Virus record (IMG/VR): IMGVR_UViG_3300043427_001537
Coordinates: 1-30,209 of that record
Direction: 5' to 3' (one strand)
Origin: a virus
DNA length: 30,209 nucleotides
The notes under the pieces were generated by a model. The model had not been told where the DNA came from and did not search any database. It saw only the letters and a program-made list of their open reading frames with translations. This document shows, one piece after another, positions 1,647-26,152 of this stretch (positions within the stretch are counted from its first letter, which is position 1; every line of letters starts with the position of its first letter). Made by a program: the position numbers and the translations under genes.

Positions 1647-4600
1647 ATGGCAGTACCACTTCTAGGAATTGGGGCTCTACTGGGAAGAACAGGATTAATG
1701 GCCGCTGGTAGAGCCGGTCTAGGAATGGCGTCTCGCGGTGTCGCTCGTGCTGGTGTCCGTATGGGGGCGAGAGCAGGGATCGGTAGAGGAGCCAGGGCAG
1801 GTATTGCGAGGGGACTTCGTACAGGTGTCAGGGGTGCTGGGAGACTCGTTAGAAACTTGGGTGATGACCTTCTGGGTACAGCTCTCGGTGGGGGCCGCCG
1901 TGGTGCCGGCGGCATGGGTGGTACAGATGTAGATCAGACAATAGAACCAGTAAAGGTAAGTGTAGTAGAAGGATTCGCTAGTGCAGTCAAAGGAGCAACT
2001 GGTGCTGGAGATGGAGGAGGAGGTGCTATAGTTCCATTCGGTGGTAGTCCATTAACAAGTAGAGAATCAACTGCGATCACTAAGAGTGGAGATCAGGTTG
2101 TTGATAGGTTAGATGAGATAAAAAGAATCCTCCAACGAATGTTGGAATTGGAAAGAGAATCTTTAGAAGCAGTAAGAAATCAAGTATTAAGTTTTGCAAG
2201 ATCTTCGGAACAAGACGCAAGAACTTCTGAGCAAGATCAACAAGAGAAATCTAAAAAAGAATCCGACAAAGCAGAAAAGAATCCAATAGTTAAGAAAGCA
2301 ACTAAAGCTTTTGGTGGTATATTTGACTTCATAAAAAATTTAGTAGGTACATTTATAAAGTATAAAATATTAGATTGGTTATCAAAACCAGAGAATAAAA
2401 AATTAATTCAAGGAACTATCCAGTTCTTCATGAATGTAGTTAAGATGTTCCAACTACTTCATGAAAGATTCATTGGTCCATTTACAAAATTAATTCAATC
2501 TATTCTTGGTGGTGGATTGAATTTGTTTATGGACTTGGCGAAGTCTCTCATTGATTTGATATCTTTGAAGTGGTTGACAAATCCCAAGGAGTTTATTGAT
2601 GGGATATTGAACATTCCAAAAACTTTATTAAAGGTAATCCCAGATATACTATCTTCACTTATCAACTTCCTAACGTTCGGATTAGCTGATGCTGCTGGAA
2701 AGATAATTCAAGATGGTATAAAGAACCTTTTCGGTCTTGGTGGAGATAAAAAAGATCAAGAGACAGAAGCTGCAAGTATCTCCCCAACAGGACAACCAGG
2801 AGCTGGAGAACAAAAACCAAATCCAATAGCTCAAGCTGGTAATGCAATCAAAGGTATTGCAAGTGCGGTATTGAATCCTATTGGTGCTCTCACCAATATG
2901 GTTGGTGGGATGTTTGGTGGTGGAAATAAAGATAAACCGCAACTAAGAGAAGGTGGTGTAGTCGGTCCAACCAAAGGTGGGTCTGGAGTTTCTGTTGAAC
3001 CATTAGATGATATTGCTGAAGCATCTGGAATACTGTCTTCAGTCAAGAAGACATCCAAGATGTTTATGGATTTATTGACGATGCCATTCAAGTTGGTTGG
3101 TGCAGGATTAATTGCACTTACCATGAATACCATTGGTAAGATTCCTGGTGTAGGTCCATTTATAAATCCATTACTACAGAGTATTATTTCCAAGTTTGAT
3201 TTACCACCATCAATTGCTGGTGTACTATCTGGAAAGGCACCAAAAGAAAAGAAGGAAGAAACAGAAAAGAAACCAGAGTCAAAGACTGGTGGATCTACTT
3301 CACAAACTGCAGGAAAAAAAGAAGATGTAAACTCTGGTAATGTTGGAAATTTGTTTTCTATGTTGACTGGAAAAGAGTCTCCATATCCATCCAGTACTGG
3401 TTCTGATGGTTCATCTCCTGCTGCTGATGGATCTTCTCCTGGTGGGACTCCTGGTGGAACTGCTCCAGGTGCGCCAGGTGGTTCTCTTAATTTTGAACAA
3501 TTAAAAACATACGCAAGAAATGCAGGATTTAATGATGCAGATGCATCCAGAATGGCTGCAATTGCGATGGCAGAATCTTCTGGAAATCCAAGAGCTCATA
3601 ATTCTACTCCGCCAGATAATTCATATGGTCTCTGGCAGATCAATATGATCGGAAACCTTGGACCTGCAAGAAGAAAACAGTTAGGTATTTCATCAAACGA
3701 ACAACTGTTTGATCCTGCAACCAACGCCAAGGCTGCTAAGATGATTAAGGATAGTCAGGGATGGAATGCCTGGACTGTTCATAAGACTGGCGCATACAAA
3801 AAGTTTATGCCATCTAAGAAGGAAGGTGGATGGATCACTGGTCCACAGTCAGGTTATCCAGTATCTCTTGATGGAGGAAAATCAACTTCATTTATTGGTC
3901 ATGGAACTGAGTGGGTTGGATTCAAGAAAGCTTCTGGTGGAAGTGTATCCAGTGCTTTTGTGATTCCATTTGATACTCCATCCACTAGAAGTAATGGTGG
4001 ATTGGTTGGTAGAAGAATCAGAGAAGCTAAGAACGGTGGATATGCACTTCCTTATGCTTCTGGTGGAGTCGTTAAGACTGATGGTGTATGGGATACTGGC
4101 CCAGGATATACTATTAAGGGCGCATCGGATCAACAGGGAAGACCAATTGTTTTCTCTCAACCAGCAGCACAAGCATTTGCTCAGATGATGACTGCATCTG
4201 GTGGAAAGGTTAAGGGATCTGATGTTGCAAGTAGTAAGAGAAGTCCTGCCAAAAATAAAGCTGTCGGTGGCGCCAGTGGTTCAAAACACATGTATGGTGT
4301 AGCGATGGATATTCATGGATCTTCTGGTTCATGGATACGTGCAAACGGATCTAAGTATGGTTGGGTTCCAAATGATTATCCAGGATCTCATGGTGGACAC
4401 TTTGAATTTAAAGGTGCTGGAATTGCTCCAGGAGATTCTAAAAATCAAGGAAATCAAGATGGAACTCAACCAGATACTGCTGGGTCTGGAGGTGGAGCCA
4501 CAGGCGGTGGTGGAGGCGGAGGAGGATCCCCCGCATTAACTATAGATATGTTAAAAGATTTGAATGCTATGTTAAATGGCGGCCCAGGATCGGGATCTTC

Positions 4601-5006
4601 TGGCGGTGGGTTATTTGGTGGAATGTTTGGTGGTGGAGGTTCTGGGTTATTTGGTGGACTTGGTAGTATTGCTGGGGGAATATTTGGCGGACCACTTGGT
4701 TCTGCAGCCGGTAGTGCATTGGGTGGTTTGTTAGATGGAAAATCTATAACTGATGTTGCATTTAATGCAGGCACAAGTCTTGTACCAGGATTGAATGCAG
4801 TCCCCAATTACTCAGGTGCATTTAAATCACTACAGACAGAGAACCTTATTACTTCTGCATTTGGGGCTGGAGCTGGTAGTGGAGTTTCTGTTATTAATGC
4901 CGCTGGTCAAATGGAATCAAACGTAAAACAATCATTTGATACTGCTAGTCTTGGAGAAACTCTACCAAGAGATGGTAATTGGTCTGTATTTAAAACTAAT
5001 CTCTAA
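1647..5006 (+). CDS. tape-measure-like tail protein with lytic transglycosylase and M15 peptidase domains
   Basis: This protein has 1119 residues. The N-terminal 90 are an unusual Arg/Gly/Ala-rich tract. A predicted coiled coil follows (about 150-215), then hydrophobic amphipathic helices (about 220-330 and 450-530). A lysozyme-like SLT domain lies at about 615-720, with catalytic Glu643 in MAESSGNP and the SYGLWQIN motif. At about 725-755 is a GPQSGY...HGTEW motif typical of tape-measure proteins. An M15-type D,D-peptidase domain lies at about 850-925, with zinc ligands His881 and Asp888 in SKHMYGVAMDI and His918 in HGGHFEF. A glycine-rich tail follows, with an IDMLKDLNAML motif. The probable role is to set tail length and cut peptidoglycan glycan strands and peptides during DNA entry. 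It is paralogous to the next gene. The start is fixed by the stop of the preceding frame, with AAAGGA about 12 bases upstream. Which of the two paralogues matches T4 gp29 is not clear. Confidence 0.72.
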   Translation: MAVPLLGIGALLGRTGLMAAGRAGLGMASRGVARAGVRMGARAGIGRGARAGIARGLRTGVRGAGRLVRNLGDDLLGTALGGGRRGAGGMGGTDVDQTIEPVKVSVVEGFASAVKGATGAGDGGGGAIVPFGGSPLTSRESTAITKSGDQVVDRLDEIKRILQRMLELERESLEAVRNQVLSFARSSEQDARTSEQDQQEKSKKESDKAEKNPIVKKATKAFGGIFDFIKNLVGTFIKYKILDWLSKPENKKLIQGTIQFFMNVVKMFQLLHERFIGPFTKLIQSILGGGLNLFMDLAKSLIDLISLKWLTNPKEFIDGILNIPKTLLKVIPDILSSLINFLTFGLADAAGKIIQDGIKNLFGLGGDKKDQETEAASISPTGQPGAGEQKPNPIAQAGNAIKGIASAVLNPIGALTNMVGGMFGGGNKDKPQLREGGVVGPTKGGSGVSVEPLDDIAEASGILSSVKKTSKMFMDLLTMPFKLVGAGLIALTMNTIGKIPGVGPFINPLLQSIISKFDLPPSIAGVLSGKAPKEKKEETEKKPESKTGGSTSQTAGKKEDVNSGNVGNLFSMLTGKESPYPSSTGSDGSSPAADGSSPGGTPGGTAPGAPGGSLNFEQLKTYARNAGFNDADASRMAAIAMAESSGNPRAHNSTPPDNSYGLWQINMIGNLGPARRKQLGISSNEQLFDPATNAKAAKMIKDSQGWNAWTVHKTGAYKKFMPSKKEGGWITGPQSGYPVSLDGGKSTSFIGHGTEWVGFKKASGGSVSSAFVIPFDTPSTRSNGGLVGRRIREAKNGGYALPYASGGVVKTDGVWDTGPGYTIKGASDQQGRPIVFSQPAAQAFAQMMTASGGKVKGSDVASSKRSPAKNKAVGGASGSKHMYGVAMDIHGSSGSWIRANGSKYGWVPNDYPGSHGGHFEFKGAGIAPGDSKNQGNQDGTQPDTAGSGGGATGGGGGGGGSPALTIDMLKDLNAMLNGGPGSGSSGGGLFGGMFGGGGSGLFGGLGSIAGGIFGGPLGSAAGSALGGLLDGKSITDVAFNAGTSLVPGLNAVPNYSGAFKSLQTENLITSAFGAGAGSGVSVINAAGQMESNVKQSFDTASLGETLPRDGNWSVFKTNL

Positions 5007-5012
5007 TAACCA

Positions 5013-8000
5013 ATGGACTTAAACTCAATTGCACAATCTGGTGTAGATCCAAAAACTGGAAAGTACCTCACTCCAGAACAGAGAAAGGAAGCTTTTAGAA
5101 AGTCTCTTGGGAGAAAGCCAAGGTCTGGGTATGTTAGTGCAAGAAAAGATTCTGCTTTGATGAAACGAAATGGTGGAGGGGGAGATGATGGTGGCGCCGG
5201 AGCTTTGGTTAAGAGATATAATTTTAGAGTCATTGAAAAATTAATTGAAGTTAAAAAAGTTGCAGATGAATTATTCAAAGTAAAACAAGAAAGAGTCCGA
5301 CTGGAATCTAAATTTGCTGAAGCTCAAAGAGTAGCGAGAGAGAAGAGTAAAAGAAAGAAAGAAGAATCTGGAATGGAATCCAGACCTTCTGGTGGTAAGA
5401 ATATACTAACTGGTTTTGCAACTGATGCAGCTGCAAAGGTAGGTGGTGGATTATTTGGAATACTAAAAGCACTGATCTCCTATGCAATTTTAGATTTCAT
5501 TTCAAAACCAGAGAACAGAAATATGGTTGAAGGGTTTGTCAAACTCTTCATGGGTATCTTTAAGTTCTTTGATTTCTATGTTGGTTCAATGGTTGGTAAT
5601 CTTCTTGGAGGATTTACTAGATTGTTTGGTGGTGGTTCTATATTAGAAAGAGTATTTGGTGGACTTCAATTATTACTTGGAGTATTCTTATTCAAAGGAT
5701 TCACCAGAGTATTAAATCCACTGAAACTTATTGGTGATATAAAATGGGCACTAAAGAATGCGAGCAACTTTAAAGACTTATTCAAGTCACTGTTCTCCAA
5801 AAATTTAGCTGGAGTTGGTGATGCAATAAAACAAATCTTCCCAAAGACAGCAAGTATATTCAAGAAAGGTTTGCAAGGTGCTCTACAAAGAGTATTCTTG
5901 AAAGTATTTGGTAAGAATATATTTACTTTCCTAAAACCATTTGTTGGTCAAGTAACCAAGACTTTAGTTAGACCTCTTGCAAAATTAGTAACAAGAGTAC
6001 CAGTAGTTGGAACTTTATTGGCTATCCCAATTAACATGTTCTTGGGAGATCCAATTGATAAAGCTGCAGTAAAAGCAATCGGTGCTGGTATCGGAACATT
6101 TGTAGTTGGTGCTCTTGGTAGTATCGTTCCTGGTGCAGGTACTGTACTTGGTGCAATAGCAGGTGGTTTATTGGGTGATTTTCTTGCTGGGTGGTTATAT
6201 GATTCTGTCATTGCTCCTCTAGGAAAAACTATATTCGGTGGAAAGAAAGATCAACCTCAATTAAACACTGGTGGTATTGCTTCTGGACCAGAGAGTGGAT
6301 ATGATGTAACTCTACATGGAACTGAAGCTGTTATCCCAATTGATAAATTAAAGGACATTGCACTAAAACCATACAAGACTGTTGCATCTATCATCATTGG
6401 ATCAACGATGGCAGTTCTTAAATCAATGGGTGCTGTTGGATCCATGTTGTCTCCTCTTGCACTTCAAATGTTTAATCCATTCATTAGAGTGTTTGGAATA
6501 TCGGTTGAAACATTTTCTAGTGGACTAGGTAAAGGTGTTGATTTATTCATGTCACCTGCAGCTGCAAAAGAATCGGCAGATCCATCAGATTATTTGACAG
6601 ATAAAGAAGATCCATACAAACCAGCTGGTGGTGGTATGGGTGGTAGAAGAGGTAGTGGTGCATCTCCATCAACTGATCCTGGTGGAAGTCCAGCTCCTGG
6701 TATGGCAGAAAATACAAAAGGAGCACCATATGAATTTGTGCAGAGTAAACTGGGTGCAAACAAACAACAGTGGGATATATTCAGAAATACTATTGCTGGT
6801 ATTGAATCTGGTGGTAAGTATGATATTGCTGGTGGATCTGGTGGTCACTATGATGGAAGATATCAACTTGGTGCTGCTGCAAAAACAGATGGTGCTCGTG
6901 CAGCAGGATTAAAAGATCCTGGTCATAGTGCATCTGCAAGAGAAGCCTTTAGAAAGAATGCAGACTTACAAGAGAAATTATTTGCTGGATATACTTTGGC
7001 AAATCATAATTATTTGATGGGTAATAAGAAATATAAAGATGCTGCAATAGAAAGAAAACTAGAGATACTTGGATATGCTCATAACCAGGGCATGGGAGGA
7101 GCAGAAAAGTGGCTTAACACTGGTCAAGTTGGTGCTGATGGTTTCGGAACCAAAGGAACAAAATATACTGATGCACTCGCTGCAAACTTCAGAAAAGCAA
7201 ACATGACTCCAAAGAAGGGTGCTTCTAGTGGAGGAGTAGTACCACTTATGGCTCAAGGTGGTGAAGTAGAAGATCCTGGTGTACTAAGATTGTTTGACAA
7301 GAAGGGAAGAGACGTAAAGAATACTGCTCCTGGACATTCCGAGGGTGGTTTGCTTCAACTTGCATCTGGTGGTATCATTCAATCCGCAAAGAAAGCAGTT
7401 GCTGAAGGAAGAAGAGGTCCAGCAACTCCTCCATGTGCTTCATGGGTTAGAATGGTTCTTGGAATGGCAGGACATCCTGCAGCAGAAAAGGTCACTCAAA
7501 AAGGAGACCTAGACCCAGACGGAACTGCATATAGTGGAAGAAACTTTGCAGCATCTTTTGCTGGTTCTGATATGGGTGCAGTTATTAGAAGTCAATCTGC
7601 ATTACAACCTGGAGATGTTGTTCTACATAAGAATACTTACGGTAATTATACTCCTGGTGCAATTACTCACGTATCTATTGCTTCGGATAAACCAGGAAAG
7701 ATCCTACACCAATCAACTAGTGGTGGAGCTCCAAAGGAGGGTGGTATATGGAACTTTGCTGCTGGTATTAGACTGGGTGGATCTGGAACTGTAGGAGCAT
7801 CTGATACAGAATCTGGTACATCTGGAAGTTCTTCCGGCGGTGGTGGAGGTCAGTCTACATCTGCTCCAGAACCATCATTGGATATTGGGATGCTGAGAGA
7901 TCTTTTCACTATGTTAACTGGAAGAGCTCCTGGCCCAGCGACACCGGCGCCACCAGTTCCACCATCAACTCCAGCACCACCGGCACCAAAATTGCCAACT

Positions 8001-8198
8001 CCAACTCCTTCTAGATCAACTTCTTTGCCATCTATGAGTAGTCAGTTTACTTTGGATAAGAAAATGTCTGCTGCACATGGAGTTGAAATACCAACCATGA
8101 TCATTAACAAATCTATGAATTATAATGGTAGTACATTCCATATGGGCAATCTAAATAATATGACGGTATCAGAAACAGCAAACCTTAATCTACTATAA
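5013..8198 (+). CDS. second tape-measure-like protein with lysozyme-like and CHAP/NlpC-like domains
   Basis: This 1061-aa protein starts 6 bases after the previous stop, without a clear ribosome site, so translation is probably coupled. A basic coiled coil lies at about 72-120. Hydrophobic helices at about 140-380 include ILDFISKPENRNMVEGFVKL, matching ILDWLSKPENKKLIQG in the preceding protein. The tape-measure motif GPESGYDVTLHGTEAVIP is at about 425-445. A lysozyme-like domain at about 585-720 has Glu598 in AGIESGGKY and the GGHYDGRYQLG segment. A cysteine-peptidase/amidase-like domain (CHAP or NlpC type) at about 795-925 has Cys808 in TPPCASW, His886 in AITHVSIASD and His899. A proline-rich linker precedes the C-terminus. 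DIGMLRDLFTML near 960 echoes the motif in the preceding protein. It is probably a virion protein in the tail lumen or hub that helps open the wall. The enzyme classes are recognised by motif only. Confidence 0.7.
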   Translation: MDLNSIAQSGVDPKTGKYLTPEQRKEAFRKSLGRKPRSGYVSARKDSALMKRNGGGGDDGGAGALVKRYNFRVIEKLIEVKKVADELFKVKQERVRLESKFAEAQRVAREKSKRKKEESGMESRPSGGKNILTGFATDAAAKVGGGLFGILKALISYAILDFISKPENRNMVEGFVKLFMGIFKFFDFYVGSMVGNLLGGFTRLFGGGSILERVFGGLQLLLGVFLFKGFTRVLNPLKLIGDIKWALKNASNFKDLFKSLFSKNLAGVGDAIKQIFPKTASIFKKGLQGALQRVFLKVFGKNIFTFLKPFVGQVTKTLVRPLAKLVTRVPVVGTLLAIPINMFLGDPIDKAAVKAIGAGIGTFVVGALGSIVPGAGTVLGAIAGGLLGDFLAGWLYDSVIAPLGKTIFGGKKDQPQLNTGGIASGPESGYDVTLHGTEAVIPIDKLKDIALKPYKTVASIIIGSTMAVLKSMGAVGSMLSPLALQMFNPFIRVFGISVETFSSGLGKGVDLFMSPAAAKESADPSDYLTDKEDPYKPAGGGMGGRRGSGASPSTDPGGSPAPGMAENTKGAPYEFVQSKLGANKQQWDIFRNTIAGIESGGKYDIAGGSGGHYDGRYQLGAAAKTDGARAAGLKDPGHSASAREAFRKNADLQEKLFAGYTLANHNYLMGNKKYKDAAIERKLEILGYAHNQGMGGAEKWLNTGQVGADGFGTKGTKYTDALAANFRKANMTPKKGASSGGVVPLMAQGGEVEDPGVLRLFDKKGRDVKNTAPGHSEGGLLQLASGGIIQSAKKAVAEGRRGPATPPCASWVRMVLGMAGHPAAEKVTQKGDLDPDGTAYSGRNFAASFAGSDMGAVIRSQSALQPGDVVLHKNTYGNYTPGAITHVSIASDKPGKILHQSTSGGAPKEGGIWNFAAGIRLGGSGTVGASDTESGTSGSSSGGGGGQSTSAPEPSLDIGMLRDLFTMLTGRAPGPATPAPPVPPSTPAPPAPKLPTPTPSRSTSLPSMSSQFTLDKKMSAAHGVEIPTMIINKSMNYNGSTFHMGNLNNMTVSETANLNLL

Positions 8199-21586: not shown

Positions 21587-22435
21587 ATGAGTCCTATTAT
21601 TGCTACATTTTCCAGCGGTTCTTCTTTTGGTCGTAGGGGTGGTATTGGTAAAATAATTGCCACTGGTGGAACTATCACAACAGTTGGATTGTATAAAATT
21701 CACACATTCACTGGCGATGGAACTTTTACAGTTACATCTGGCGGTGGACAACAAGTTGAATACTTAATTGTTGCTGGTGGCGGCTCCGGCGCTGATACTG
21801 GCGGTGCTGGCGCTGGTGGTATGTTAACAGGTTCTTTTACTGTTTCATCTACAAATTATTCTGTTGTTATTGGAGCCGGTGGTCCAGAAGGTCCAGATGG
21901 AGATAATGGAACTGTTTATCAAAATGGTTCAAATAGTACTGCATTTGGTTTGACAGCATTTGGCGGAGGATGTGGGGGATCTGGTTTCTCTCTAGGCGGC
22001 AATGGGGGCAATGGTGGAAGTGGTGGAGGAGCATCAAGAAATCCTCAAGGTACTTTAATAGGATCACCTGGAACTGGAGTTTCTGGTCAAGGTAATCGCG
22101 GTGGATTTCCATCAGCTGCAGATTGGAAAGCTGGTGGCGGCGGGGGTGCTGGTCAGGTTGGAGGAGATGCTTCTGGTAATGTATCTGGAAATGGTGGAAA
22201 TGGTCTTCAGTCCTCTATTTCAGGAACTTCTGTGTATTATGCTGGTGGAGGGGGAGGAGGAAGTGATATCACTCCTGGGTCTGGTGGACTAGGAGGCGGC
22301 GGAAGAGGAAAAATTGGTGCAGATGGAACAAATAAAGATGGTGTTGCAAACACAGGTGGCGGTGGCGGCGGTGGATGGTCAGGCCTGTGCGGCGCTGGAG
22401 GATCTGGGATTGTTATAATCAGATATCTTGCGTAA
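21587..22435 (+). CDS. glycine-rich tail adhesin
   Basis: This 282-aa protein has the best ribosome site of the fibre region (AAGGAGA). Residues about 40-65 (YKIHTFTGDGTFTVTSGGGQ, then VEYLIVAGGG) start a domain of glycine-rich loops with many runs of 3-6 glycines (about 64-270), ending in GSGIVIIRYLA. This start and end are typical of glycine-rich fibre-tip domains, and glycine-rich sandwiches form the receptor-binding tips of adhesins such as gp38 of T2/S16-type phages. It probably binds the host surface at the end of a fibre. Its stop abuts the stop of the minus-strand halogenase gene with no spacing. Confidence 0.78.
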   Translation: MSPIIATFSSGSSFGRRGGIGKIIATGGTITTVGLYKIHTFTGDGTFTVTSGGGQQVEYLIVAGGGSGADTGGAGAGGMLTGSFTVSSTNYSVVIGAGGPEGPDGDNGTVYQNGSNSTAFGLTAFGGGCGGSGFSLGGNGGNGGSGGGASRNPQGTLIGSPGTGVSGQGNRGGFPSAADWKAGGGGGAGQVGGDASGNVSGNGGNGLQSSISGTSVYYAGGGGGGSDITPGSGGLGGGGRGKIGADGTNKDGVANTGGGGGGGWSGLCGAGGSGIVIIRYLA

Positions 22436-23608
22436 TTAAAAATAACTTCCAAAAATTAATTCGTCCATCTCAGATTCAATTTCAAGACCTTTTATGTTTT
22501 GAAGTAAGGATCCTGCCCACCAAAGACCATAGTTATCGGTCTGTTTACATTCTCCATAGTTATTAGTAGATTTTGCATTTGCATAGATCGTCAAAAAATT
22601 ATGATCCTTTGATAATTTTTTGACGCACTGATTTGCTTTTTGTTTAGCAAATTTCCAAAACTCAGTATCGTATATTGACCCAGAAAAATAATGTAACATG
22701 ATTACAGATTCAATCTGAATTATTTCTTTCAGGTAATCATTATTTGATTCTTCGTGACTTTTATTACCATTTAACATGTCCCAAGAATTTCTTTGAATAT
22801 GGTCCATCATACCAACAGAAGTAGCTTCTAAAGGTTCAAGAAAGAAAGAAGCATTTCCATTGTATGCAATATTATCTACGTAATTTTGTTTTCTATAGTA
22901 ATTTTTAAAACTAAACGAATTTGTATCTTGACTTGGAATTAAATTGTATTCCAAAAAGATATTTTGTATGTCTTCTTTTATTTCATCAATGGTGTTAATT
23001 TCACTGTTGTAAAGATATCCGATTGAACACCTATTCTGCAATGGAATTCCAAAAACCCATCCATATGGTCTAGCAATAGTCAGTGTATGCAAGAATCTAG
23101 GATACTCCCAATAACACTGATTGACATGAACAGAATTTACTGGAATGTATGAGCTCATATAAAAATCATCAAAACTTTCTGGTTTACCAGAACAATTCAT
23201 TACAAAATCCGCATCAATTTGTGTAGATTTTACATTATGATCAAACAAAGAAACTTTATCTTTAACGCACTCAAAAATATAATTTTGCAATGAAATAGCA
23301 TTAAAATGTAATGCAACATTTGGTGGCGGAAAAGAGTGCAGGAAAGACTTTCCAGTTTTACCCCACCCAGACTTATAGATACCAGTTTTAATAGTACCAT
23401 CAATTTTATCCAGATCTGAGTAATTAAAAGATAAATTTGTAAACATATTTCTGGAGAGAGTCAGAACAGAACCTTCTCCTACTGCTTGTGTAGGTGTATC
23501 CGAATCAAAGTGCCATTGAATTTCGCAATCCGGCATATGTCTTAAAAAATGTATTACCGATTGAGCTCCTGCAGTGCCTTTACCGAGGATTGCTATTCTC
23601 TTAGTCAT
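22436..23608 (-). CDS. flavin-dependent (tryptophan-type) halogenase-like protein
   Basis: This 390-aa protein has the FAD motif GKGTAG (Gly9, Gly11, Gly14) as in tryptophan halogenases (GGGTAG) and VGEGS at 43-47. Lys74 in TIKTGIYKSGW is at the place of the catalytic lysine (Lys79 of PrnA). GWVFGIP at 183-189 corresponds to the WxWxIP signature with the second Trp changed to Phe. FLEPLEATS at 257-264 carries the glutamate segment (Glu261). It is 120-150 residues shorter than classical tryptophan halogenases, mainly at the C-terminus. The family normally uses FADH2, O2 and halide to halogenate aromatic compounds; the substrate here is unknown. Its ATG follows the stop of the carbamoyltransferase gene directly, with GGAG upstream inside that gene, so they form one operon. 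I recall halogenase-like genes in some cyanophages. The family call is good, the activity unproven. Confidence 0.8.
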   Translation of the reverse strand: MTKRIAILGKGTAGAQSVIHFLRHMPDCEIQWHFDSDTPTQAVGEGSVLTLSRNMFTNLSFNYSDLDKIDGTIKTGIYKSGWGKTGKSFLHSFPPPNVALHFNAISLQNYIFECVKDKVSLFDHNVKSTQIDADFVMNCSGKPESFDDFYMSSYIPVNSVHVNQCYWEYPRFLHTLTIARPYGWVFGIPLQNRCSIGYLYNSEINTIDEIKEDIQNIFLEYNLIPSQDTNSFSFKNYYRKQNYVDNIAYNGNASFFLEPLEATSVGMMDHIQRNSWDMLNGNKSHEESNNDYLKEIIQIESVIMLHYFSGSIYDTEFWKFAKQKANQCVKKLSKDHNFLTIYANAKSTNNYGECKQTDNYGLWWAGSLLQNIKGLEIESEMDELIFGSYF

Positions 23609-25270
23609 TTAAACTTTCTCCATTAATTTGTTTTGTTTCACAAAGTACAAACAATCTAGATTACTATTTGCATAAGTATCTATTGCATCTTCAACAGTAT
23701 GCACTAGAGGTTTGCCAGCAAGATTAAAACTAGTGTTCAATAACATAGGACAACCAGTTTTATCATAGAAATTTTTTAACAAGTCATATAAAAATCCATC
23801 AGATATAGTTTGAATTCTACAAGTGTCATCTACATGTACAATACCAGGAGCTAATAGTTTTGTCTCTGGTTTACATTCAAAACTAATTGTCATGTATGGA
23901 GAAGATTTGATTCCAAGAGTTTCAAAGTAATTTTCAAACTCTTCCTCAAGAATTACACCAGCAAATGGTCTATACCACTCTCTCCTTTTTATTTTGTTTA
24001 TAATATTTTTTGCATCTTTATTGCGAGGATCAAATAGTATTGACCGATGACCCAAAGCTCTTGGTCCAGATTCTGGAGATCCATCAAAAATTGCCAAACT
24101 CTTTTGATTTATCAAAATATCACTGAGATAGTCCAAATCAGTTTGGTTTCCATCAATTATGGTTTCGGAAGACTCATCGTAATAGTGATAAAAGTTATTT
24201 TTTGGAACAATAATGGATTTATCTTTAGTAAGTGATCTATATTTTAACATTGCAGAACCAATGCTTATTCCTGTATCGTCAGCGAGTGGTTCAAAGTAAA
24301 AATTAATATCAGGAAGATTTTTTACATAGAAATTATTTGCAACTACATTTAGTCCATATCCACCAACTATACACACATTTTTGATTCCAGTCAAATTTAC
24401 ATACTCTCTTATTAATTTTAGAGTTTCTGACTGAGTTTCAATTTGAACGTGTTTAGCCTTGTTTGCATATGGTTTATAGTTATTTTCCGTTATTTTATTG
24501 GTTATCAACTCTTCACAACCATTAAAACAAGATACATTTGACATGTGATTTGTATCTACATGACAAAACATATTACTTACAGATTTTCCAGAGTCATCAA
24601 ATAATTTTGGATAGTCTTTTTGATCACCATATGAGGATAATCCCATAGTCTTTCCATTTTCTAGTGGATGTTCACCTATAAGAGTTGTGGCTGCCTCATA
24701 GACTTTAACTACACCAAATGAATTAGTTACTTCTATACTTGACTGTGGATATAAATCCTGAAGTTGTTTTTTAATCAAATACCTTTTATTCTCATATCCA
24801 TCATAAGACCAAAAATTTTTATATACTGGAACAATATTGTCGGGATAAGAAAATTTATATACACTTTCTGATTCTCTTGCTACAGGAGTTTCGTTTAAGA
24901 AAACCACAGACCCATTTCTGTCTATAACGAATACAAGGGATTCTTCAAATCCACTGTTATAAAAAGCTATACTTGCATGAGAATCATGATGTTTTAAATT
25001 AGAAAAATTTTCAGCAGATACATTGAAAAGTTTTCTGACAAAATTATTAAATGTAAACTCCAACGTAGAAACTGTATTTGTTGGAGTACAATACAAGATA
25101 TGATCTACTTTACCAAAATTCAAAGACTTGTATAAATTTAAAGAAATAAATGGGTGTATATCTCTCTTCTGTCCAGAGAGTCTTTCTTCCTTACAGAAAA
25201 ATTCTATGAATCCATCATTAATTGCACAGACAGAACTATCATGTGTTATGTTGAAGGAAAGGATTCTCAT
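23609..25270 (-). CDS. NodU/CmcH-type carbamoyltransferase
   Basis: The ATG at 25270 gives 553 aa beginning MRILSFNITHDSSV; a TTG 15 bases upstream is possible but less likely. The N-terminal Kae1-like domain has KHHDSHASIAFYNSGF (His94, His95, His98) and a strand with Asp117, matching the HHxxHAxxAFxxS metal/nucleotide site. GGYGLNVVANN matches the family's GGVALN motif. The C-terminal domain contains SPESGPRALGHRSILFDPR and REWYRPFAGVI, the hallmark EGPRALGxRS...FRPFAP segments. Such enzymes transfer carbamoyl from carbamoyl phosphate to hydroxyl groups of sugars or antibiotics, and some phage members modify hydroxymethylcytosine in DNA. The substrate here is unknown. It overlaps the upstream gene by 32 bases, and its stop touches the halogenase start. 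All key motifs look intact. Confidence 0.88.
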   Translation of the reverse strand: MRILSFNITHDSSVCAINDGFIEFFCKEERLSGQKRDIHPFISLNLYKSLNFGKVDHILYCTPTNTVSTLEFTFNNFVRKLFNVSAENFSNLKHHDSHASIAFYNSGFEESLVFVIDRNGSVVFLNETPVARESESVYKFSYPDNIVPVYKNFWSYDGYENKRYLIKKQLQDLYPQSSIEVTNSFGVVKVYEAATTLIGEHPLENGKTMGLSSYGDQKDYPKLFDDSGKSVSNMFCHVDTNHMSNVSCFNGCEELITNKITENNYKPYANKAKHVQIETQSETLKLIREYVNLTGIKNVCIVGGYGLNVVANNFYVKNLPDINFYFEPLADDTGISIGSAMLKYRSLTKDKSIIVPKNNFYHYYDESSETIIDGNQTDLDYLSDILINQKSLAIFDGSPESGPRALGHRSILFDPRNKDAKNIINKIKRREWYRPFAGVILEEEFENYFETLGIKSSPYMTISFECKPETKLLAPGIVHVDDTCRIQTISDGFLYDLLKNFYDKTGCPMLLNTSFNLAGKPLVHTVEDAIDTYANSNLDCLYFVKQNKLMEKV

Positions 25271-25709
25271 TCTCAATAGTTTCAATAATTAACTTTGGTG
25301 TATATGGCAAAGTTATCTCTCGCTTGGAGTTATATTTTGTTTGATACGTGTATATTGTATCATATTCCTTGAAATCTGGCAACCTGTAAGCTACTGCCCG
25401 ATCATCCCAATATTTTCCATCTTCCGTCATGTAGACACTTGGATATCTTACGCATCTCATTATTTCAACTTTTCTACCACGTTCCACATATTCTTCTTTT
25501 TCAAAATCACTTTCTGTGATAGGAGTAATTGGAAGTTTTGTAAGTAGTCTATCTATGATTTCTACAACTTCTTTTAAGCTTGCCGTATCTAAGTTTGTTA
25601 TCTCTTGAGTTTCTTCTAATAAATTCAAAACTGATTTGCCAAAATTGGATCCGTAGATGTTCGTCAATTTTAGCTCATTTATTGCATGTTGCATCATATC
25701 AGAATTCAT
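25239..25709 (-). CDS. unknown protein, first gene of the inverted operon
   Basis: This 156-aa protein has an N-terminal half of amphipathic helices (MMQHAINELKLTN, VLNLLEETQEITNLDTA, LKEVVEIIDRLLTK). The C-terminal half is a charged aromatic-rich part (EKEEYVERGRKVEIMRCVRY, SVYMTEDGKYWDDRAVAYRL). No cysteine pairs, signal peptide or known catalytic motif is seen. I do not recognise a characterised family. Its 3' end overlaps the carbamoyltransferase start by 32 bases, so translation is coupled and a linked role is plausible. A minus-strand late-type promoter lies about 20 bases upstream, leaving a very short leader. Its base composition is AT-rich like the rest of the operon. Confidence 0.72.
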   Translation of the reverse strand: MNSDMMQHAINELKLTNIYGSNFGKSVLNLLEETQEITNLDTASLKEVVEIIDRLLTKLPITPITESDFEKEEYVERGRKVEIMRCVRYPSVYMTEDGKYWDDRAVAYRLPDFKEYDTIYTYQTKYNSKREITLPYTPKLIIETIENENPFLQHNT

Positions 25710-25728
25710 ATGTTGTCCATTAAAACTG

Positions 25729-25736
25729 TATTTAGT
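25729..25736 (-). promoter_or_regulatory. late-type promoter, minus strand
   Basis: The plus strand reads TATTTAGT, which is ACTAAATA on the minus strand, a known-looking variant of the late element. It lies 20 bases before the ATG of the 156-aa gene and one base from a plus-strand GATAAATA. It is the only promoter candidate I find for the inverted operon. Confidence 0.45.
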
Positions 25737-25737
25737 T

Positions 25738-25745
25738 GATAAATA
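25738..25745 (+). promoter_or_regulatory. late-type promoter, plus strand
   Basis: GATAAATA lies 30 bases before the ATG at 25775. With the facing minus-strand element it forms an inverted repeat, TATTTA-5 bases-TAAATA (25729-25745), a back-to-back divergent pair. Confidence 0.5.
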
Positions 25746-25774
25746 CTTGATAAGATTTCCACCATCAATATAAA

Positions 25775-26152
25775 ATGGCTCATTTTGCTAAATTAGATTC
25801 AGATAATAAAGTTGTCCATGTTTCTGTTGTTGATAACGATGTTATTTTAACGGAAGATGGAACTGAAAGTGAGGAACTTGGTATTGAACATCTACTGTTA
25901 ATACATGGACCATCTACATGGAAACAAACGTCATACAATTCTAATTTTAGAAAAAATTATGCAGGTATTGGTTTCACTTATGATGAAACACTAGATGCAT
26001 TTATTCCACCGAAACCATATCCTTCTTGGAGTTTGAATGAGGAAACTTGCAAATGGGAACCACCAATTCCAAAACCAGAGACAACTAGAGAAAATTATCT
26101 TGGTCCGTTTTGGGATGAAGATACTTTGAGTTGGATTGATATTGACTTATAA
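25775..26152 (+). CDS. conserved small cyanophage-type protein
   Basis: This 125-aa protein begins MAHFAKLDSDNKVVHVSVVD and contains TWKQTSYNSNFRKNYAGIGF, TYDETLDAFIPPKPYPSW and LNEETCKWEPP, ending with FWDEDTLSWIDIDL. I recall proteins of this pattern as widespread in marine cyanophages, often in several copies per genome, with no assigned function. The repeated T/S-W-x segments (WKQTSYN, PSWSLNEET, WDEDTLSW) look like short beta repeats. Its place between the divergent promoter and fibre genes suggests a virion or fibre-associated role. The stop codon overlaps the next late promoter. Confidence 0.75.
   Translation: MAHFAKLDSDNKVVHVSVVDNDVILTEDGTESEELGIEHLLLIHGPSTWKQTSYNSNFRKNYAGIGFTYDETLDAFIPPKPYPSWSLNEETCKWEPPIPKPETTRENYLGPFWDEDTLSWIDIDL

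Follow-up and report, generated by a model that had tools for sequence, protein, structure and literature searches.

A minus-strand operon with genes for a Tad3-like protein, a carbamoyltransferase and a flavin-dependent halogenase, convergent with a glycine-rich fibre gene, as a candidate fibre-tip modification unit

Halogenases and carbamoyltransferases have been listed among the accessory genes of cyanophages since 2010, with no agreed role (PMC3037559), and the occurrence of each enzyme alone in these phages, noted in the first-pass annotation of the sequence considered here, has long been known. That sequence is the IMG/VR record IMGVR_UViG_3300043427_001537, analysed over its complete available length of 30,209 bases (the window); statements about gene content cover this 30-kb fragment. 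It contains a minus-strand operon of three genes, encoding a Tad3-like protein, a carbamoyltransferase and a flavin-dependent halogenase, which faces a glycine-rich (Gly-rich) fibre gene. We know of no natural substrate for VirX1, the sole characterised viral halogenase. VirX1 of cyanophage Syn10 (6QGM; PMC8407142) resembles the window halogenase in being viral and flavin-dependent, in its fold (template modelling (TM) score 0.70-0.74) and in having both the catalytic lysine and the Fx.Px.Sx.G motif, but it is longer (531 against 390 amino acids (aa)) and only 14-16% identical in the structure alignment. Of the 50 solved structures that were listed for the predicted model of the window halogenase, MibH (5UAO), a lanthipeptide tryptophan 5-halogenase, is the closest, with a TM-score of 0.79 against 0.67-0.76 for the others, although MibH has a 519-residue chain, shares 16% identity and is part of an antibiotic pathway. 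MibH halogenates tryptophan within a peptide. The MibH-like fold of the model is suggestive of a large substrate, and is not proof of one.

The minus-strand block at 22436-25709 had been described in the first-pass annotation as three overlapping or abutting genes inside the tail-fibre region, and this description holds; other open reading frames (ORFs) on the minus strand of the window, counted from 60 aa upwards, do not exceed 133 aa. In minus-strand order the Tad3-like gene is followed by the carbamoyltransferase gene and then the halogenase gene (Table 1). The last two are spaced by 0 bases, while the carbamoyltransferase gene overlaps the Tad3-like gene by 32 bases from its ATG start or by 47 bases from an alternative TTG start at 25285 (558 aa); in the alignment it is the ATG at 25270 that agrees with the homologue starts. 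A second virus, L113 (IMGVR_UViG_3300032323_000845, 48.5 kb), also carries the trio in this order, with 4-base overlaps from gene to gene and identities to the window of 41% (Tad3-like protein), 58% (carbamoyltransferase) and 66% (halogenase). The operon of each virus ends stop to stop with a convergent Gly_rich_2 gene: the halogenase gene abuts it in the window and overlaps it by 4 bases in L113. Identity between the two Gly-rich proteins is about 54%. Apart from fibre-type genes and a single 110-aa protein, the remainder of the L113 contig has little in common with the window. In all trio and Gly-rich genes divergence is highest at third codon positions, as expected under purifying selection. 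Because both enzymes match curated families (1e-27 to 1e-121), which bears out the identities first proposed for them, and because the unit recurs in L113, the operon is not a product of chance, and the trio is a real unit.

A comparable slot is found in four cultured Kyanoviridae, S-SSM5, S-CAM8, P-RSM4 and S-MS29, in which a minus-strand gene for a Nol-like carbamoyltransferase lies between fibre genes and a cluster of 2-oxoglutarate (2OG) oxygenase and phrog_7759 genes, and in 4/4 this minus-strand gene is overlapped by the end of a plus-strand Gly_rich_2 gene. The arrangement is that of the window, with a carbamoyltransferase gene convergent with Gly_rich_2 and phrog_7759 beyond; it differs in that these carbamoyltransferases (33-36% identity) form a clade apart from that of the window and that 2OG oxygenases replace the halogenase and the third gene. 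In our view, two carbamoyltransferase lineages occupy a single position here, and this speaks for a functional link of carbamoyltransferase and Gly-rich gene. The convergent pairing of an enzyme gene with a Gly-rich fibre gene thus extends over six virus genomes. A link to adhesins had been suspected from the position of the block, with the caveat that it might be a chance of insertion. The link is strengthened by these four phages and by the homologous Gly-rich gene of L113; together with the fibre-assembly neighbours of the halogenase homologues (see below), the L113 recurrence and the S-SSM5-type slot also speak against chance. Our favoured reading, to which we give a probability of about 0.42, is that a tail-fibre tip module includes the block as an intact accessory operon, acting on the glycine-rich tip or on a glycan carried by the tip.

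The halogenase was identified by profile matches to PF04820 (1.9e-27) and phrog_2928 (1e-62), and its predicted model has a flavin-dependent halogenase fold (predicted local distance difference test (pLDDT) 91.8). The GxGxxG motif for flavin adenine dinucleotide is found at the N-terminus as GKGTAG (residues 9-14), with G9, G11 and G14 invariant in 35 homologues, as is K74, which aligns with the catalytic lysine of solved enzymes (K79 of PrnA/VirX1). The Fx.Px.Sx.G tunnel motif with the catalytic glutamate is F256-L-E-P259-L-E261-A-T-S264-V-G266 (FLEPLEATSVG). At the position of WxWxIP stands GWVFGIP (W184-x-F186-x-I188-P189), Phe replacing the second Trp throughout the clade; variants of this motif occur in active halogenases (PMC8407142). 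Compared with a solved enzyme, the 390-aa protein has about 80 residues fewer between positions 97 and 173. The halogenases of S-RIM4, S-ShM2 and S-SCSM1 belong to the same compact family (31-51% identity), and their genes directly precede fibre or structural genes in S-RIM4 and S-ShM2 and baseplate genes in S-SCSM1; unlike the window gene, they have no adjoining carbamoyltransferase or third gene. In three viral contigs (L152, L172 and L178), compact halogenase genes occur in tandem pairs, and at other loci (Table 1) the gene of a glycine-rich family without a Pfam match, with an MPVTSSGAIS N-terminus and NGGGGWGR, is directly adjacent to that of the compact halogenase or overlaps it.

A profile-based search for halogenase homologues yielded 79 loci, 46 of them remaining after dereplication. 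The 89 immediate neighbour proteins of these 46 loci include 13 tail-assembly chaperones (PF16778), about 9 2OG oxygenases, 3 carbamoyltransferases, 3 phrog_7759 proteins and a few proteins of replication or packaging. Within 5 kb, a carbamoyltransferase is present at 7/46 halogenase loci and at 0/71 phrog_7759 loci (Fisher P 0.001), a comparison to be taken as a guide only, as the two sets were differently sampled. These distributions bear on the view that a variable fibre locus simply gathers unrelated accessory genes and that the trio has no common function. Such cargo would agree with the lower guanine-cytosine content of the block (31.4% against 37.8% for the window), with the variability of phage fibre regions and with the single enzyme that most relatives carry, whose occurrence it explains. 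The conserved trio is left unexplained by it: L113 keeps order and overlaps at 41-66% identity along with the convergent Gly-rich neighbour, the proximity of halogenase and carbamoyltransferase recurs in several different arrangements, and the same slot holds two carbamoyltransferase lineages. We consider this view improbable. The independent distribution of the three genes, raised in the first-pass annotation as evidence against a joint system, is thus seen in part, in the relatives with one enzyme, and not in L113.

The carbamoyltransferase matches PF16861 (1.2e-52), PF02543 (2.4e-16) and phrog_1601 (4.5e-121), and its catalytic motifs are invariant across a 15-sequence alignment. It keeps the HHxxHA metal site (H99, H100, H103; also D337) and the YrdC-like carbamoyl-phosphate site (GPRALGHRS 407-415, K433, R435, R439, R490, N517, S519). 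Catalytic motifs are intact in both enzymes, contrary to what would be seen in inactive proteins with degraded sites. In other marine viruses, carbamoyltransferase genes of the window lineage lie 3' of Gly-rich, phrog_7759 and 167-aa genes on the same strand, with runs of 2OG oxygenases after them. No close relative was confirmed in bacterial genomes and therefore no host donor was found. Two related records are likely misannotations: the S-SCSM2R carbamoyltransferase (L207 3501-5093) carries the name of a 2OG-Fe(II) oxygenase, and pyrBI (aspartate carbamoyltransferase) is the name under which the S-MS29 genome paper (PMC10436341) gives a gene whose product, going by the record, is a Nol-like carbamoyltransferase.

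A phage-borne enzyme of the same superfamily, proven from a metagenomic contig, carbamoylates 5-hydroxymethylcytosine (PMC8670742), and nucleobases were among the targets first proposed for the window enzyme, which would then act on hydroxymethylated pyrimidines of phage DNA. Some cyanophage carbamoyltransferases do adjoin nucleotide genes, that of P-SSM2 (L206) directly following purM and that of S-RIM44 (L208) following the thymidylate synthase ThyX, and these are better candidates for nucleotide modification than the window enzyme. The proven enzyme co-occurs with thymidylate-synthase-type hydroxymethylases (PMC8670742), whereas no hydroxymethylase is found among the scanned proteins of the window, where the enzyme lies in a fibre locus adjoining fibre genes. 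In our own alignment mapping, moreover, the equivalents of TobZ G421 and R423 are ordinary G and R, and that of W408 is Ile. Nucleobase modification appears highly improbable here.

The strongest rival, although unlikely, is that the enzymes act during infection on host surface glycan or lipopolysaccharide, so that superinfecting phages or released progeny no longer find the receptor. The need to match a receptor with the enzyme that masks it would then explain why the enzymes travel with the fibre gene. Sugars are carbamoylated by the characterised family members NodU and TobZ, the S-CAM3 carbamoyltransferase lies with heptose genes, and those of S-SCSM2R, HTVC008M and Bellamy lie with epimerases, a glycosyltransferase or UDP-glucose dehydrogenase; the glycan-cluster enzymes of Bellamy and HTVC008M are, however, far from the window lineage. 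No sugar-biosynthesis gene was found in the fibre region of the window, and a halogenase does not suit simple sugars.

Under the favoured reading of fibre-tip modification, the operon would be expressed together with the late (virion) genes. The carbamoyltransferase would O-carbamoylate a hydroxyl on the fibre tip, either on the glycine-rich protein or on its glycan, and the halogenase, supplied with reduced flavin, would halogenate an electron-rich aromatic group there, perhaps Trp residues of the Gly-rich protein; the peptide ANTGGGGGGGWSG would be a candidate substrate of the halogenase, as would the complete Gly-rich protein. The modified tip may then differ in receptor binding or in the stability of the adhesin, and the first gene could provide either a protein that helps the enzymes or, slightly likelier, an inhibitor of host TIR immunity that is carried along with them. 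Gly-rich proteins encoded within 500 bases of a halogenase gene contain 1.31% Trp (n=5) against 0.39% where there is no halogenase (n=121; P 6e-4), and the window and L113 proteins share, right after the NTGGG run, a Trp that other such proteins nearly always lack; this is a post hoc pattern with few cases, in which P ignores common descent. A more specific proposal, which we hold to be unlikely, is that the glycine-rich adhesin tips of marine T4-like phages are halogenated, at Trp in a poly-glycine stretch such as NTGGGGGGGWSG, and carbamoylated by the phages themselves, and that the operon travels with the tip gene and carries an anti-TIR protein.

Several observations weigh against the inferred modification of the fibre. 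The three genes are mostly separate outside the two trio viruses, and no further trio was found in the viral contigs, so that the trio is rare. Some related halogenases adjoin head, terminase or replication genes, and related carbamoyltransferases occur in clusters of glycan or nucleotide genes. The scanned proteins of the window include neither a 2OG oxygenase nor a glycosyltransferase, and it is not obvious that modifying a fibre would require a Tad3-like protein.

The convergent pairing nevertheless makes fibre-tip modification a directly testable question. If the tips are modified, host recognition by abundant marine viruses would gain a new layer, and viral halogenases a natural substrate. 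The unit is built of known parts and would be categorically new only if modified fibres were found. The pairing of halogenase and carbamoyltransferase is not unique to the window, since the cultured phage S-SSM7 has a carbamoyltransferase, a 2OG oxygenase, a carbamoyltransferase and a halogenase in one row; that row involves other enzyme subfamilies, has no Tad3-like gene and sits after a heptosyltransferase-like gene. Neither the trio nor its Tad3-like first gene nor the convergent Gly-rich pairing was found described in the open-access papers searched, which agrees with the novelty first suggested for the coupling with a third gene. The searches likewise turned up no proposal of tail-fibre modification by halogenases or 2OG oxygenases; Sullivan et al. 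2010 tied cyanophage 2OG oxygenases to 2-oxoglutarate levels and not to fibres.

The product of the first gene, initially regarded as unknown, passes the Pfam cut-off for PF25185, named by Pfam as Tad3, type I Thoeris inhibitor (5.9e-8; 32.9 bits, cut-off 27; residues 3-106 covered). The score being modest, the match was re-tested: the L113 homologue scores 31.8 bits, a reversed-sequence control gave no match, and two overlapping parts score 21.6 and 15.5 bits. A protein of the jumbo Klebsiella phage FBKp24, which surfaced through a weak tblastn match and a fold search, scores 96.9 bits for Tad3 and has a P-[IL]-[ST]-P-[IL]-T stretch in common with the window protein. It also contains a GHSGGSA stretch (QGHSGGSA), presumably typical of the Tad3 family, which is absent from the window and L113 operon proteins. 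By profile, the first gene is that of a divergent Tad3-family member. No homologue was found by tblastn in 50,697 phage records (E 0.01) or by single-sequence search of the viral and genome contig sets, and a search with the two-sequence alignment matched only the L113 contig. The AlphaFold2 model is poor (pLDDT 61) and returned nothing from the PDB fold search; the BFVD fold search gave two matches below 0.001 and the FBKp24 protein at 5e-3. A sequence match to a head-tail connector in the PDB (E 0.03) was dismissed as chance, and a weak tblastn match in Aeromonas concerned a protein that has carbohydrate-binding modules but does not match Tad3.

From this protein arises a further, distinctly improbable explanation, in which the Tad3-like protein blocks TIR/Thoeris immunity and the enzymes inactivate or mask the defence trigger or signal. 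The profile match extends to the distant homologue, and, of the three genes, the first changes fastest, as an arms race would lead one to expect. These points concern the first gene alone, which lacks the GHSGGSA stretch of strong Tad3 members; halogenation and carbamoylation have no known link to Thoeris signals, and the fibre slot and a late-promoter-like element point to virion assembly.

This element, ACTAAATA, begins at 25736 on the minus strand, 27 bases ahead of the Tad3-like gene, and is one of two minus-strand T4-late-like matches in 30 kb; on the plus strand, the motif scan of the intergenic region showed GATAAATA at 25738. The match is imperfect, and the element may serve as a late promoter of the operon. 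Scans for sigma-70-type promoters and terminators gave sites no more numerous than in shuffles. The genes around the operon encode a baseplate hub (phrog_150), a gp5-like protein (phrog_694), a fibre (phrog_529), Gly_rich_2 and an S74 chaperone, and the window, a fragment from a T4-like marine virus of cyanobacteria, has hub proteins of baseplate and gp5-like type together with fibre families of the cyanophage type. A Gly-rich ORF lies within 5 kb of phrog_7759 at 65/71 dereplicated viral loci, and for that reason phrog_7759 (L033-L112, and in the window) is probably a fibre-tip companion.

Table 1. Features of the operon and its flanks, and loci of the glycine-rich family found beside compact halogenase genes
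Feature	Position	Strand	Remarks
Glycine-rich fibre (tip-like) protein, candidate substrate	21587..22435	+	282 aa; PF21722 Gly_rich_2 8.3e-20; convergent with operon
Flavin-dependent halogenase, compact, last operon gene	22436..23608	-	390 aa; stop abuts convergent Gly-rich gene
NodU/TobZ-type O-carbamoyltransferase	23609..25270	-	553 aa from ATG 25270
Divergent Tad3-family protein (by profile), first operon gene	25239..25709	-	156 aa; PF25185
Divergent intergenic region with T4-late-like element	25710..25774	.	65 bases; motif scan
phrog_7759 protein	25775..26152	+	125 aa; phrog_7759 2.4e-44
MPVTSSGAIS glycine-rich family beside halogenase			L154, L159, L163, L164, L179, L180, L182-L184

Runs of 3-7 consecutive 2OG-Fe(II)-oxygenase-like genes were seen beside Gly-rich fibre and phrog_7759 genes in the viral contigs L013, L016, L019 and L026 and similarly in the cultured cyanophages L190-L193, and a full-length halogenase sometimes accompanies them (L013 5461-6933). 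Elsewhere in the window, separate parts of two adjacent proteins (1647-5006, 1119 aa; 5013-8198, 1061 aa) match several phage endolysin or unknown families, and these proteins look as if lysin domains had been built into structural proteins.

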